Source of the DNA: Vescimonas coprocola
GTDB lineage: Bacteria; Bacillota; Clostridia; Oscillospirales; Oscillospiraceae
Length of the DNA stretch: 64,000 bases
Direction of reading: 5' to 3'
Assembly: GCF_018408575.1 (NCBI RefSeq)
Contig: NZ_AP023418.1
Span: 2,384,415-2,448,414, forward strand
Each line of letters begins with the position of its first letter. The first letter of the stretch is position 1. The notes under the pieces are model-generated. The model saw only the letters and a list, made by a program, of their open reading frames with translations, made no database searches and was not told where the DNA came from. The position numbers and the translations under genes are program-made. Of the stretch, positions 3,461-63,243 are shown one piece after another.

Positions 3461-3607
3461 CACGACCTCTCCTCCGCTGACAGCTGCGGAGCCGGTCTCA
3501 CGCAATGGATACCCACGAATCATGTCAGGCGGGGAACCGAGCAGCATTAAGAGGGACCATCCATGTGCCGTGAGGGCGCCGGCTCCACAGCTGTCAACGG
3601 AGGAGAA
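3461..3607 (+). ncRNA. ffs: Signal recognition particle RNA, small bacterial type
   Basis: This is the RNA scaffold of the signal recognition particle, which binds Ffh and targets nascent membrane proteins. Two arms, 3468-3495 and 3579-3606, pair almost perfectly with a few G-U pairs. The tip carries the conserved GTCAGG / AGCAGC asymmetric loops around a GGAA tetraloop closed by CGG/CCG (about 3522-3545). The stem is followed by seven T residues (3608-3614), a built-in terminator. At about 140 nt it has only the S domain and lacks the Alu domain of the B. subtilis RNA. The position immediately before dnaX is the usual one in Firmicutes. Confidence 0.93.
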
Positions 3608-6990: not shown

Positions 6991-7530
6991 ACGGCAGCTT
7001 ACGACTGGGTGCGGCAGCTTACCGCCGAGTGCGGCAGCTTATGGCTGGGTACGGCGGTTTACCGTTGGATGCAGCCGCTTACCGCCGAGTGCGGCGATTT
7101 ACCGCTGGATGCAGCAGCTTACGGCTGGGTACGGCGGTTTACCGTTGGGTGCGGCAGCTTACGGCTGGGTGCGGCGGTTTACCGTTGGGTGCGGCAGCTT
7201 ATGGCTGGGTGCGGCGGTTTACCGCTGGATGCAGCCGCTTACCGCCGAGTGCGGCGGTTTACCGCTGGATGCAGCAGCTTACGGCTGGGTGCGGCAGCTT
7301 ACGGCTGGGTGCGGCAGCTTACGGCTGGGTGCGGCAGCTTATGGCTGGGTGCGGTAGCTTACCGTTGGGTGCGGCGGGTCACCGCCGGGTGCGGCGGTTT
7401 ACCGCTGGATGCAGCAGCTTACGGCTGGGTGCGGCGGTTTACCGTTGGGTGCGGCGGTTTACCGCTGGATGCAGCAGCTTACGGCTGGGTGCGGCGGTTT
7501 ACCGTTGAGTGCGGCCGCTTATCGTCGGGT
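6991..7530. repeat. Minisatellite: 27 tandem 20 bp units
   Basis: Twenty-seven consecutive 20 bp units run from 6991 to 7530 without a single insertion or deletion, plus half a unit to 7540. The consensus is GCGGCRGYTTACSGYTGGRT. Four main variants alternate; one set carries CAGC...GCTG and another CGGT..ACCG, so each unit can form a small hairpin. All three plus-strand frames stay open only because of composition and period; no ribosome binding site or protein-like pattern is seen. The array ends inside the last codons of tex, so it would be transcribed as the tex 3' region. Confidence 0.95.
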
Positions 7531-7538
7531 GATGCAGC

Positions 7539-9701
7539 TTACTTCTTTCCGGCGGCCTGACGCATGGAGAGGCTGATGCGGTGTTTCTTTTCATCCACCT
7601 CCAGCACCACTACCTTCACCACGTCGCCCACGGCCACGGCCTGAGAGGGGTGCTTGATGAAGCGGTCGCAGATCTGAGAGATATGCACCAGCCCGTCCTG
7701 ATGGACGCCGATGTCCACGAACACGCCGAAGTCCACCACATTGCGGACCGTCCCCGTCAGCTCCATGCCGGGCCTTAAATCCTTGATGTCCAGCACGTCG
7801 GTCCGCAGGATGGGGGCCGGCAGATCGTCCCGCACGTCCCGTCCGGGCTTCACCAGCTCCTGCACCACATCCTGTAAAGTGGGAACGCCCACGCCGATCT
7901 GCCGGGCGGTGTTTTCCTCCCCTATGGCCCGCACCTTCTGGGGCAGCTGACTCATGGCGGCGGCGCCCACGTCCGCCGCCGTATAGCCGCACAGGGTCAG
8001 CAGCTGCTCCGCCGCCGGATAGCTCTCCGGGTGGACGCCGGTGTGATCCAGCACATTGCGGCTCTCCGGCACCCGCAGGAAGCCGGCGCACTGCTGGAAG
8101 GCCTTGGGGCCTACCTTGGGTACCTTCAGCAGCTGCCGCCGGGTGGTGAAGGCTCCGTTCTCCTCCCGGTATTTGACGATGTTTTTGGCGGTGGTGCCAT
8201 TCAGGCCCGCCACCCGGCCCAGCAGGCTGGCGGAGGCGGTATTCACGTCCACGCCCACGGCGTTGACGCAATCCTCCACCACGCCGCCCAGCGTCTCATC
8301 CAGCCGCTTCTGGGGCATATCGTGCTGGTACTGCCCCACGCCAATGGCCTTGGGGTCGATCTTCACCAGCTCCGCCAGCGGGTCCTGCATCCGGCGGGCG
8401 ATGGACACGGCACTGCGGAGGTTTACGTCATACTCCGGGAACTCCTCCGCCGCCAGCTTGCTGGCGGAGTACACGGAGGCCCCGGCCTCGCTGACCATCA
8501 TATAGCTGACGCCGCCCCCTAAGGTATGGATCAGCTCCACCGCCATCTGCTCCGTCTCCCGGCTGGCGGTGCCGTTGCCGATGGCGATGTGCTCCACATG
8601 GTGCCGCTGGATCATGGCCCCCAGCCGGGCGATGGCCTCCTGCTTCTGCCGCTGGCCATAGGTGGGATACACCACCGTGGTATCCAGCACCTTGCCGGTG
8701 GCATCGATGACCGCCACCTTGCAGCCGTGGGCATAGCCGGGGTCCAGCCCCATGGTGACGTGGCCCTTCACCGGCGGCTGCATCAGCAGGGGCTTCAGGT
8801 TCAGGGCGAAGGTCTGGATGGCCCCCTCGCAGGCCCGCTCCGTCAGGTCGCTGCGGGCCTCCCGCTCCAGCGAGGGATAGATGAGCCGGTCATAGGCGTC
8901 CTCGCAGGCGCTCTTGATAAACTCCATGGCCGCAGAGCCGGGCCTGACCACCGCCCGGCGCAGGGCGGTGAGTCCTGTCTCCCGTTCCAGCAGCACGGTA
9001 ACGGAGAGGAAGCCCTCCTTCTCACCCCGGTTGATAGCTAATATCTGATGTCCCGCCAGCTTGGGGAGGGGCTGCTCAAAGTCGTAGTACAGCCGGTAGA
9101 CGGAGTCCTCCTCCCCGGTGGCCAGACTCCGCAGCCGCCCCTGACGGCGCAGCAGCTCCCGCAGGGTCTTGCGGATGGCGGCGTCATCCGACAGAAGCTC
9201 CGCCACGATGTCGTTGGCTCCCTGCAGGGCGTCGGCGGCCGTCTCCACCCCCTTCTCCGGGTCGATGAAGCCCTGCGCCGCCTGCATGGGGTCGGGGCAG
9301 TCCCGCCGCTGGGCCAGCAGCAGCTCCGCCAGCGGCGCCAGCCCTTTTTCACGGGCCACGGTGGCACGGGTGCGGCGCTTTTGCTTATAGGGGCGGTACA
9401 GATCCTCCACCTCCGCCAGCGTCCGGGCGTGGTCAATGGCCTCCGCCAGCTCCGGCGTCAGCTTCTCCTGTCCCTCGATGGCGGACTTTACCTCCTGCCG
9501 CCGCTGTTCCAGATTCCGAAGATAGTTCAGCCGGTCCTCCAGCTTTCGCAGGGCGGTGTCGTCCATGCTGCCGTGAAGCTCCTTCCGGTAGCGGGCGATG
9601 AAGGGAATGGTGTTGCCCTGATCCAGCAGGTCGATGACGTTCTGCACATGGACAGGAGAGGCTCCCAGCTCCTGAGCCAGAAGTTCTGCAATGGTCTGCA
9701 T
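7539..9701 (-). CDS. tex: RNA-binding transcriptional accessory protein Tex
   Basis: A 720-residue Tex protein, a conserved nucleic-acid-binding factor linked to transcription. The N-terminal helical region starts MQTIAELLAQELG, with the RYRKELHGSMDDT motif near residue 38. A YqgF-like RNase H-fold domain begins near residue 315 (MGLDPGYAHGCKVAVID). Tandem helix-hairpin-helix motifs follow (NTASASLLGRVAGLN; LLKVPKVGPKAFQQCAGFLR). A C-terminal S1 domain runs from about 650 (GMELTGTVRNVVDFGVFVDIG). AAAGGAG lies upstream of the ATG. Its stop codon abuts the 20 bp minisatellite. Confidence 0.97.
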   Translation of the reverse strand: MQTIAELLAQELGASPVHVQNVIDLLDQGNTIPFIARYRKELHGSMDDTALRKLEDRLNYLRNLEQRRQEVKSAIEGQEKLTPELAEAIDHARTLAEVEDLYRPYKQKRRTRATVAREKGLAPLAELLLAQRRDCPDPMQAAQGFIDPEKGVETAADALQGANDIVAELLSDDAAIRKTLRELLRRQGRLRSLATGEEDSVYRLYYDFEQPLPKLAGHQILAINRGEKEGFLSVTVLLERETGLTALRRAVVRPGSAAMEFIKSACEDAYDRLIYPSLEREARSDLTERACEGAIQTFALNLKPLLMQPPVKGHVTMGLDPGYAHGCKVAVIDATGKVLDTTVVYPTYGQRQKQEAIARLGAMIQRHHVEHIAIGNGTASRETEQMAVELIHTLGGGVSYMMVSEAGASVYSASKLAAEEFPEYDVNLRSAVSIARRMQDPLAELVKIDPKAIGVGQYQHDMPQKRLDETLGGVVEDCVNAVGVDVNTASASLLGRVAGLNGTTAKNIVKYREENGAFTTRRQLLKVPKVGPKAFQQCAGFLRVPESRNVLDHTGVHPESYPAAEQLLTLCGYTAADVGAAAMSQLPQKVRAIGEENTARQIGVGVPTLQDVVQELVKPGRDVRDDLPAPILRTDVLDIKDLRPGMELTGTVRNVVDFGVFVDIGVHQDGLVHISQICDRFIKHPSQAVAVGDVVKVVVLEVDEKKHRISLSMRQAAGKK

Positions 9702-34766: not shown

Positions 34767-34795
34767 TTGACAAATCCGAAAAACGCAGGTATAAT
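34767..34795 (+). promoter_or_regulatory. Consensus promoter of tRNA-Gly
   Basis: TTGACA (34767-34772) and TATAAT (34790-34795) with a 17 bp spacer: a perfect consensus pair ending 13 bases before the tRNA. Confidence 0.9.
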
Positions 34796-34808: not shown

Positions 34809-34884
34809 GCGGGCGTAGCTCATCTGGTAGAGCGCGACCTTGCCAAGGTCGAGGTAGCGAGTTCGAGCCTCGTCGCCCGCTCCA
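34809..34884 (+). tRNA. tRNA-Gly (anticodon GCC)
   Basis: A 76-base tRNA with acceptor stem GCGGGCG/CGCCCGC, a D-arm with GGTAGAGC, anticodon stem CGACC/GGTCG around TTGCCAA (anticodon GCC) and T-arm GCGAG-TTCGAGC-CTCGT. The 3' CCA is encoded. A terminator follows immediately. The 3' 29 bases are repeated twice downstream. Confidence 0.97.
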
Positions 34885-34923
34885 AAAAGAATACCCCATC
34901 CGACAGGACGGGGTATTCTTTTT
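34885..34923 (+). terminator. Terminator of tRNA-Gly
   Basis: AAAAAGAATACCCC pairs with GGGGTATTCTTTTT, starting directly after the encoded CCA. Confidence 0.92.
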
Positions 34924-34924
34924 G

Positions 34925-35070
34925 GAATGTGCCGCAGCACCGGAGAACTCGCTGCCTCGACCTGCGCGAAGCGCGTCAAATCAAGAGGTGAGGCAGGGCT
35001 CCTGCGAATGGCGACAGCCATTCGTGGGATGCCGGGAAGCGAGTTCGAGCCTCGTCGCCCGCTCCAAAAA
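34925..35070. repeat. 146 bp repeat, copy 1, ending in a tRNA-Gly 3' end copy
   Basis: The unit begins GAATGTGCCGCAGCACCGG and ends with a 29-base copy (35038-35066) of the tRNA-Gly T-arm/acceptor/CCA plus AAAAA. It includes the hairpin CGAATGGC-GACA-GCCATTCG (near 35004-35024). It differs from copy 2 at two positions. Confidence 0.93.
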
Positions 35071-35216
35071 GAATGTGCCGCAGCACCGGAGAACTCGCTG
35101 CCTCGACCTGCGCGAAGCGTGTCAAATCAAGAGGTGAGGCAGGGCTCCTGCGAATGGCGAGAGCCATTCGTGGGATGCCGGGAAGCGAGTTCGAGCCTCG
35201 TCGCCCGCTCCAAAAA
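35071..35216. repeat. 146 bp repeat, copy 2, ending in a tRNA-Gly 3' end copy
   Basis: Directly adjoining copy 1 and of identical length; the tRNA 3' copy is at 35184-35212. The differences are GCGC/GCGT in the middle and GACA/GAGA in the hairpin loop, so the hairpin stem is unchanged. Confidence 0.93.
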
Positions 35217-35242
35217 CACCACCCGAAGGGTGGTGTTTTTTT
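35213..35242 (+). terminator. Terminator after the tRNA-derived repeats
   Basis: AAAACACCACCC pairs with GGGTGGTGTTTT around GAAG, then T residues. A second terminator after the repeats suggests they can be transcribed. Confidence 0.9.
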
Positions 35243-35592
35243 CGCTTATTCGGCCCTCACCGCCGTGTCAGGAAGACACAAAATAACCTCCCAAAACCAC
35301 TCCGCCGGAGGGCCACCGCTGCATCGACAATTTCCACTCTTTTTGGAGGGTTTTTGTGTTGACATAACGAGGTGGAAAAGTCTGTGGAAACTGTGCAAAA
35401 CCCAGTAGATAAGCCATTTGCGGAGGTTGCAGGCTGTTATTTTATGCGTAAACCTGGAAACTTATTTCGGGAAAAGAGACTTTTTGCCGAGGAGAGCCGA
35501 GTCCCGCACTGAGAACCTGCGGGCCATGCGGCGGCTGAAAGCAGACAGCGGGACGGTCTGCATCCGGGGTGAAATTTTCTATAAAAAGGGGA
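35243..35592. other. Non-coding stretch, nothing recognised
   Basis: About 350 bases without a convincing gene. Open frames lack ribosome binding sites and protein-like composition. A TGTGGAAA-like motif repeats at about 35372-35393 (GTGGAAAAGTCTGTGGAAA), which is too weak to call a DnaA-box cluster. Confidence 0.5.
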
Positions 35593-45209: not shown

Positions 45210-45803
45210 TTAACCCAGAGCGGCCACAGCGGCCAGCGCTGCGTTGGCACCCTTGGTCACGCCCTTGGTGGAAACGGTGGCGCCGGAGATGGCGGTGACG
45301 GTTTTGCCCACCTTCAGAGTGCCTGCGCCGCTCATGCCAACGAACTGGTCCAGAACGGGTACACCGTCGTCATTGGGCATATTGCCGCACACCTTGGTGC
45401 CGATACCGGAGGTCTCGGAGTGACTCACCACGGAGATACCGGTGATCTTCTGCTCGGCATCCACGCCGATGACCATCTCGATGAGGCCCTGAGAGCCGCT
45501 GGCCGTCAGCTTCACAGCGTAGCCGGCAGGCTGGCCGTCGAAGGTGACCGTGTACATCTCCTCCAGCGTACCGCCCATTTCCTTGGCGGCGTCCATGACC
45601 TCCTGAGGAATGGAGGTGATCTCGTCGTATGTACTGCCGGCCTCGGTGACGGCCTCCAGAGCCGTCTGAGTAGCGGCGGCGTTCATGGCGGCGATCTTGT
45701 CGGCGGTGACGCCGTTGACCAGACCCAGCAGCAGAGCCACCACCAGAGAGATGATGGTCAGCGTACCGGCGACCTTCAGAATAAACTTACCGGAGATCTT
45801 CAT
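45210..45803 (-). CDS. rnfG: Rnf complex subunit RnfG (FMN-binding)
   Basis: A 197-residue subunit with one N-terminal membrane helix and an extracytoplasmic FMN-binding domain. The covalent flavinylation motif is AISGATVSTKGV near residue 180, with the threonine of SGAT as the expected attachment site. It overlaps rnfD by four bases. Confidence 0.95.
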   Translation of the reverse strand: MKISGKFILKVAGTLTIISLVVALLLGLVNGVTADKIAAMNAAATQTALEAVTEAGSTYDEITSIPQEVMDAAKEMGGTLEEMYTVTFDGQPAGYAVKLTASGSQGLIEMVIGVDAEQKITGISVVSHSETSGIGTKVCGNMPNDDGVPVLDQFVGMSGAGTLKVGKTVTAISGATVSTKGVTKGANAALAAVAALG

Positions 45804-63062: not shown

Positions 63063-63215
63063 TTTGTACCTGAGAGATTCCCCGCCGGAGCGGGTTGCAC
63101 CTTCGGCGTGCGGACAGGCCGCACTCTTCGGAGTATCGTCGTGGTCCGACCCTTTTGCCTGAGAGCTTCTGCATTCCCCTTCGGCGCCGCCGCAGCGGTC
63201 TCTCCCGGACCAGTC
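63063..63215 (-). promoter_or_regulatory. Tandem glycine riboswitch
   Basis: Two tandem aptamers on the minus strand. Aptamer 1 (about 63215-63140) has GGGAGAGACC, GCGCCGAAGGGG and CTCTCAGGCAAAAGG. Aptamer 2 (about 63139-63063) has CTCCGAAGAG, ACGCCGAAGGTGCAA and AATCTCTCAGGTACAAAAAC. These are the conserved words of the class. It precedes a terminator and the glycine-cleavage operon, the classic on-switch target. Confidence 0.93.
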
Positions 63216-63243
63216 ATCCGAACTCTGTTTGCTTGTCACCCAT

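Follow-up and report, generated by a model that had tools for sequence, protein, structure and literature searches.

Short repeats such as MITEs, REP, BOX and Correia elements are known from bacteria as non-coding, hairpin-forming sequences that occur patchily and in multiple copies. The units described here are likewise short, non-coding, hairpin-forming, patchy and multi-copy, but they lie almost only behind tRNA genes, and their ends are copies of the local tRNA instead of fixed terminal repeats. In Dehalococcoides, integrative islands are stacked at ssrA, where insertion takes place in the middle of the T-loop and many stacked ssrA repeats are found (McMurdie 2011, PMC3146451). Those islands carry integration genes and cargo (PMC3146451), whereas the tRNA-tail units are gene-free, only about 75-185 bp long, possess an inverted tail copy as well and are found at 27 kinds of tRNA/tmRNA. 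Theta ribozymes, which adjoin phage tRNAs, resemble the units as structured RNA tied directly to tRNAs (PMC10879173). They are, however, phage-encoded and HDV-like, whereas in the units a closing helix joins both ends, and a search of the units with the HDV-like and other ribozyme families of Rfam gave no match. The repetitive hairpin-forming elements of sponge mitochondria are reported to have repeatedly invaded intergenic regions (PMC2800124), a similarly recurrent intergenic invasion in another type of genome.

The locus studied here lies in a stretch of 64,000 nucleotides of Vescimonas coprocola (contig NZ_AP023418.1, positions 2,384,415 to 2,448,414), called the window below. In the window, a structured tRNA-tail unit that contains no genes is present as two tandem copies (Table 1), and we use W for this unit, X for its direct and X' for its inverted copy of the tRNA tail. 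The tRNA-Gly(GCC) gene is monocistronic, the stem of the first terminator-like hairpin extends into its CCA end, and the units begin 41 nt 3' of the gene on the same strand. The original prediction had described two adjacent 146 bp units that differ by two bases behind tRNA-Gly, each ending in a 29-base tRNA tail with CCA and A residues, with a second terminator closing the set, and all of this was borne out. The units are identical at 144 of 146 positions (the differences being 34974 C/T and 35015 C/G), both close with AGCGAGTTCGAGCCTCGTCGCCCGCTCCA, an exact match to tRNA-Gly positions 48-76 that is followed by AAAA, and the two-unit set is closed by the second terminator-like hairpin with its T-run. 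What had been overlooked is that positions 38-56 of tRNA-Gly recur in both units in inverted orientation. The first terminator-like hairpin has no second copy at the boundary between the units. A chance origin of the W repeats is excluded by 292 nt at 99% identity together with the 29-nt exact tRNA copies. The layout of intact tRNA, insert and displaced 3' tail is typical of an integrative element at a tRNA. Units of this size leave no room for a recombinase gene, and only unsupported overlapping ORFs cross them. These are open frames of 119 aa (34927-35286) and 111 aa (35073-35408), and it is likely that they are spurious, although automatic annotation may list such frames as hypothetical proteins.

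Table 1. Features of the tRNA-Gly locus, in positions of the window
Feature	Position	Strand	Remark
Sigma-70 promoter of the tRNA-Gly gene	34767..34795	+	TTGACA-17-TATAAT, 12/12 consensus match
tRNA-Gly(GCC), encoded CCA	34809..34884	+	ARAGORN; Rfam RF00005 62.7 bits
Terminator-like hairpin 1	34881..34926	+	21-nt arms, 95% complementary, then T-run
Unit 1 (146 nt)	34925..35070	+	direct repeat; TRF score 570
X' of unit 1, inverted copy of tRNA positions 38-56	34945..34963	+	18/19 complementary
Three-way-junction fold of unit 1 (P1 GAACTCGC/GCGAGTTC, P2, P3)	34945..35046	+	predicted fold
X of unit 1	35038..35066	+	exact copy, tRNA positions 48-76 including CCA
Unit 2 (146 nt)	35071..35216	+	two substitutions relative to unit 1
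X' of unit 2	35091..35109	+	inverted repeat
X of unit 2	35184..35212	+	exact copy, tRNA positions 48-76 including CCA
Terminator-like hairpin 2	35212..35240	+	13-nt perfect arms and T-run

Between X' and X, the W unit is predicted to fold into a three-way junction (34941-35046, -59.1 kcal/mol, z -6.2), the closing helix of which, P1, consists of T-arm sequence of the tRNA, with X' pairing with X. According to the predicted fold, the change of C to T at 34974 turns a G-C pair into G-U and the difference at 35015 falls in a loop. Over the three available W sequences, 96.6% of the cells are paired and no significant covariation was detected.

In the host genome, the W unit was found solely at this tRNA-Gly. 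A second, identical tRNA-Gly inside a tRNA cluster is without units, no tail copy was found behind any other tRNA gene of the genome (54 Rfam tRNA matches), and the few direct tail matches were neighbouring tRNA genes or weak, with 5 mismatches. The search for the unit beside other tRNAs, as had been proposed, gave nothing elsewhere in the host but revealed other units with tRNA-derived ends in other genomes. One congener (G008) has a single W unit at the corresponding position, behind tRNA-Gly and its terminator, with 90% identity over 126 nt. This recurrence at tRNA-Gly goes against a one-off duplication, which would have been suggested by a unit confined to this one place, the finding that had been named as refuting the idea. 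Another genome (G011) carries a truncated W unit behind tRNA-Gly, whose left end GCGGGCAGGCTTGAACTCGCTGCCTCGACCT connects the W type of inverted tail with that of class A, which belongs to the family treated below. No convincing W core was found in any other of the 32 genomes of the genus, the match in G028 being 19 nt long.

Many congeners, among them L007, L010, L017, L021, L025, L027 and L034, have a class A unit in place of W at the tRNA-Gly site, consisting of the inverted tail GCGGGC..GAGGCTCGAA, three hairpins and then ..CGAGCCTCGTCGCCCGCTCCA, and still other cores occupy the site in L023/L208, L030 and L207. One site and the same tRNA-derived right end are therefore common to several unrelated cores. 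As a separate observation, the right end of class A reads CGAGCCGAGGAGCCCGC instead of CGAGCCTCGTCGCCCGC in L024, L028 and L097, and in L024 and L097 the left end is altered too (GAGGCGAG for GAGGCTCG), as if short stretches had been flipped.

Units of classes A and B were collected with two models. With the first, R1, class A units were detected behind tRNA-Pro, Tyr, Ser and Gly(CCC), and in every case the tail copy was that of the tRNA concerned. The second, R2, is a covariance model of the class A-type core, and the elements it detected contain no genes, measure about 75-125 nt and are spread over 65 of the 394 genomes and 35 of the 167 genera of the order. At E <= 1e-4, R2 also matched four genomes in other families of the class, where the three tRNA-adjacent matches all lie behind tRNA-Tyr, and in 299 genomes across the phylum nothing at this threshold, an empty answer that carries little weight. 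Out of 109 analysed R2 matches, 92 follow a tRNA/tmRNA gene of the same strand within 400 nt, the genes concerned being of 27 kinds, and the chance of such adjacency is estimated at less than about 1% (60 tRNAs x 400 nt over both strands of a 2 Mb genome). The remaining 17 lie mostly near the start of a contig or after a stray tail copy. That the matches are real tRNA genes was ruled out, as none of the 109 overlaps a tRNA gene. Tandem units of the R2 type are present in L134, L144, L171 and others. A pattern search of contigs returned only four matching stretches, including those of Sphingomonas and Lacunisphaera. A pair of tandem units with no tRNA nearby was seen in L132 (600-950, read on the minus strand), immediately behind an ORF that encodes a recombinase zinc-ribbon domain and contains, at its 3' end, the tRNA-tail-like GGTTCGAG...CTCCACCA.

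The ends of class A and B units follow the adjoining tRNA, the left end being an inverted and the right end a direct copy of its tail. X is exact to its own tRNA over 17/17 positions in 47 of the 92 units, as against 8 of 8030 comparisons with other tRNAs, and all 50 of the exact class A/B copies share a sharp T-loop boundary, with their first base at tRNA position 55-58. X' mirrors X, for example in GGGATTCGAA, TGGATTCGAA, GGGACTTGAA and CGGAATCGAA, and P1 pairing is kept even in some units without the acceptor part. In 37 of the 92 tRNA-adjacent units, some of which have lost the acceptor part, X is not strictly closest to its own isoacceptor, which counts against the reading preferred below.

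Filled and empty versions of one site could be compared between tRNA-Arg(TCT) and tRNA-His. The interval is empty in L201, with a 26-nt spacer (GTCTTTCCGCTG...), and holds a unit in L175, L181, L204 and L136. In L175, L181 and L204, the flank TTTCCGCTG comes after the displaced CCA of the unit, indicating that the insert consists of spacer, X', core and one tail. No terminator separates the tRNA from the unit in the Arg-His clusters, whereas one does in the window. Judging from this arrangement, it is likely that units are co-transcribed with tRNAs in the terminator-free clusters. Some units occupy the same tRNA in more than one species, which would also agree with a function maintained by vertical descent.

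Over 108 distinct class A/B units, 95.3% of pair cells were standard and 564 compensatory cells were observed, where shuffles gave 167 and slid controls no more than 84, figures that lean towards the model because the alignment was fitted to it. The internal helices contain 48 G-U against 10 A-C combinations, and a similar excess is seen in terminators (28 to 3) and in tRNA stems, which suggests that the tRNA-sense strand is the strand on which the core folds. P1 shows no such strand bias (16 G-U, 18 A-C), and this fits P1 as a by-product of the copied tRNA sequence.

The W unit has the site, the direct tail to CCA, the inverted tail, the closing helix and the tandem layout of class A/B. Its X copy begins at position 48, outside the class A/B boundary of 55-58, and R2 run on the W cores with filters off gave best sense-strand matches of 5.9-6.8 bits, which is background level, so direct homology to the R2 core was dropped. 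Since W shows neither the core homology nor the T-loop boundary, what we claim is the same arrangement at the same site and not a proven common descent, and the W units, which share site and layout but not the core, are best called an analogue and not a proven member of the family. The earlier interpretation has held in part. Its main suggestion, a miniature element associated with tRNA 3' ends, is supported: W recurs behind tRNA-Gly in G008, and other units with tRNA-derived ends lie behind many tRNAs in other genomes.

No Rfam family reached its gathering score on the units, whether W or class A/B. The Gut-1-like RNA of Rfam was rejected as an explanation, the matches in L131, L195 and L196 lying beside the units and not on them; these matches were also below threshold (32-43 bits, gathering score 50). 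One class B unit searched against phage and plasmid collections gave no match, and in IMG/VR nothing was returned for two patterns of class A/W and one of class B. One pattern led to a single IMG/VR prophage contig, in which the unit lies in the host flank, and a phage or plasmid origin of the units was dropped after these searches and this location. The contig (L205, 900-2610) carries tRNA-Ser(TGA), a class B unit, tRNA-Ser(GCT) and then, by eye, a tyrosine-integrase-like ORF. Because this ORF follows the tRNA-Ser cluster, it seems that the prophage integrated beside the unit-bearing cluster. Neither a recombinase, transposase or integrase tied to the units, also in trans, nor a full-length partner element was found. 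The proposal of stacked attachment sites agrees with the layout, but no integrase is tied to the units.

The reading we prefer, with about as much belief in it as doubt, is that of a structured element which has no genes, settles at tRNA 3' ends and borrows its own ends from the host tRNA. Such a unit would consist of a spacer or terminator hairpin, X', a hairpin core and X to CCA. A non-autonomous element would enter the 3' half of the tRNA, leaving the tRNA intact and its original tail displaced downstream, and arrays could then grow and shrink via recombination between direct X copies. Recombination or gene conversion may keep X equal to the tRNA, whereas fold-back copying, or selection on P1, may keep X' complementary to X. 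Selection would favour folding of the core on the tRNA-sense strand, be it RNA or single-stranded DNA that folds, and W would be a local variant with a core of its own. A more far-reaching form of the idea, which we put forward only tentatively and would sooner question than rely on, is that of a new Clostridia class of gene-free elements at tRNA 3' ends that rewrites its direct and inverted ends, so that they match the particular tRNA in front of it, via a folded RNA or single-stranded DNA intermediate. The newness attaches to the class A/B family, of which we found no prior description. The literature search, mostly of open-access papers, gave no account of tRNA-tail units, and other papers may describe them.

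The strong covariation and the sense-strand excess of G-U over A-C in internal helices, like that of terminators and tRNA stems, would also be explained if the units were functional structured RNAs. They would then be host ncRNAs within the tRNA transcript, by read-through or in an operon, whose copied tail engages the machinery that processes or binds tRNA, for example as decoys or processing switches. In several genomes, units between tRNAs of one cluster without a terminator suggest co-transcription, and some units share orthologous positions. We consider this explanation unlikely, though a serious one, as presence is patchy, the tRNAs differ across species, tandem copies and empty sites occur, the same tRNA bears different cores within one genus, and a strong terminator precedes the units in the window. 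The element reading has to be weighed also against remnants of integrative elements or prophages, according to which the units would be collapsed attL-attR ends of larger elements integrating in the T-loop. The intact tRNA, the insert and the displaced 3' end are the layout of tRNA-targeting elements, the Dehalococcoides islands offer a precedent with their mid-T-loop insertion and stacked ssrA repeats (PMC3146451), a prophage with a tyrosine-integrase-like ORF abuts the tRNA-Ser cluster in L205 and a recombinase zinc-ribbon ORF precedes the units in L132. Nevertheless, no larger element with the same core was found beside an attachment site, the phage and plasmid collections held no match to the class B unit, the sole IMG/VR unit is in host flank, and conservation of the core far exceeds what one would expect of random remnants, which makes this origin very improbable.

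An ordinary local duplication would need neither a mobile element nor a function, only repeated template switching at the terminator palindrome that duplicates the tRNA 3' region in tandem and inverted form. X, terminator and X' do form a palindrome, the junction of the two W units resembles slippage at GAAT, P1 is without strand bias and the inverted tRNA copy of W extends into the anticodon stem. Such a process leaves unexplained both the covariation and a homologous core whose sequence is conserved between different tRNAs, between genera and families, and even in further orders of the class, so that it is already strained for class A/B, and we regard it as improbable overall. The units matter in that they couple a conserved structured core to the sequence of the adjoining tRNA, at 27 kinds of tRNA/tmRNA and in many genera of an order common in the gut. 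Should the units move, they would represent mobile elements of unusually small size whose ends derive from the host; should they be RNAs, tRNA transcripts would have a partner not described so far. In both cases, the units can serve to test how a sequence settles at a tRNA tail and leaves the tRNA unbroken.

Some features elsewhere in the window may be recorded. A tandem array at 6992-7542 has a GC-rich unit of roughly 20/40/60 nt (CGGCAGCTTACGGCTGGGTG..., about 13 copies of 40 nt). ARAGORN places a 92-nt tRNA-Trp at 45622-45713 that the Rfam tRNA model does not report, and this call is probably false, given the normal tRNA-Trp present at another place (L037). A bacterial small SRP RNA (69.2 bits) was detected at 3489-3588, and a glycine riboswitch aptamer (56.6 bits) at 63137-63217 on the minus strand.
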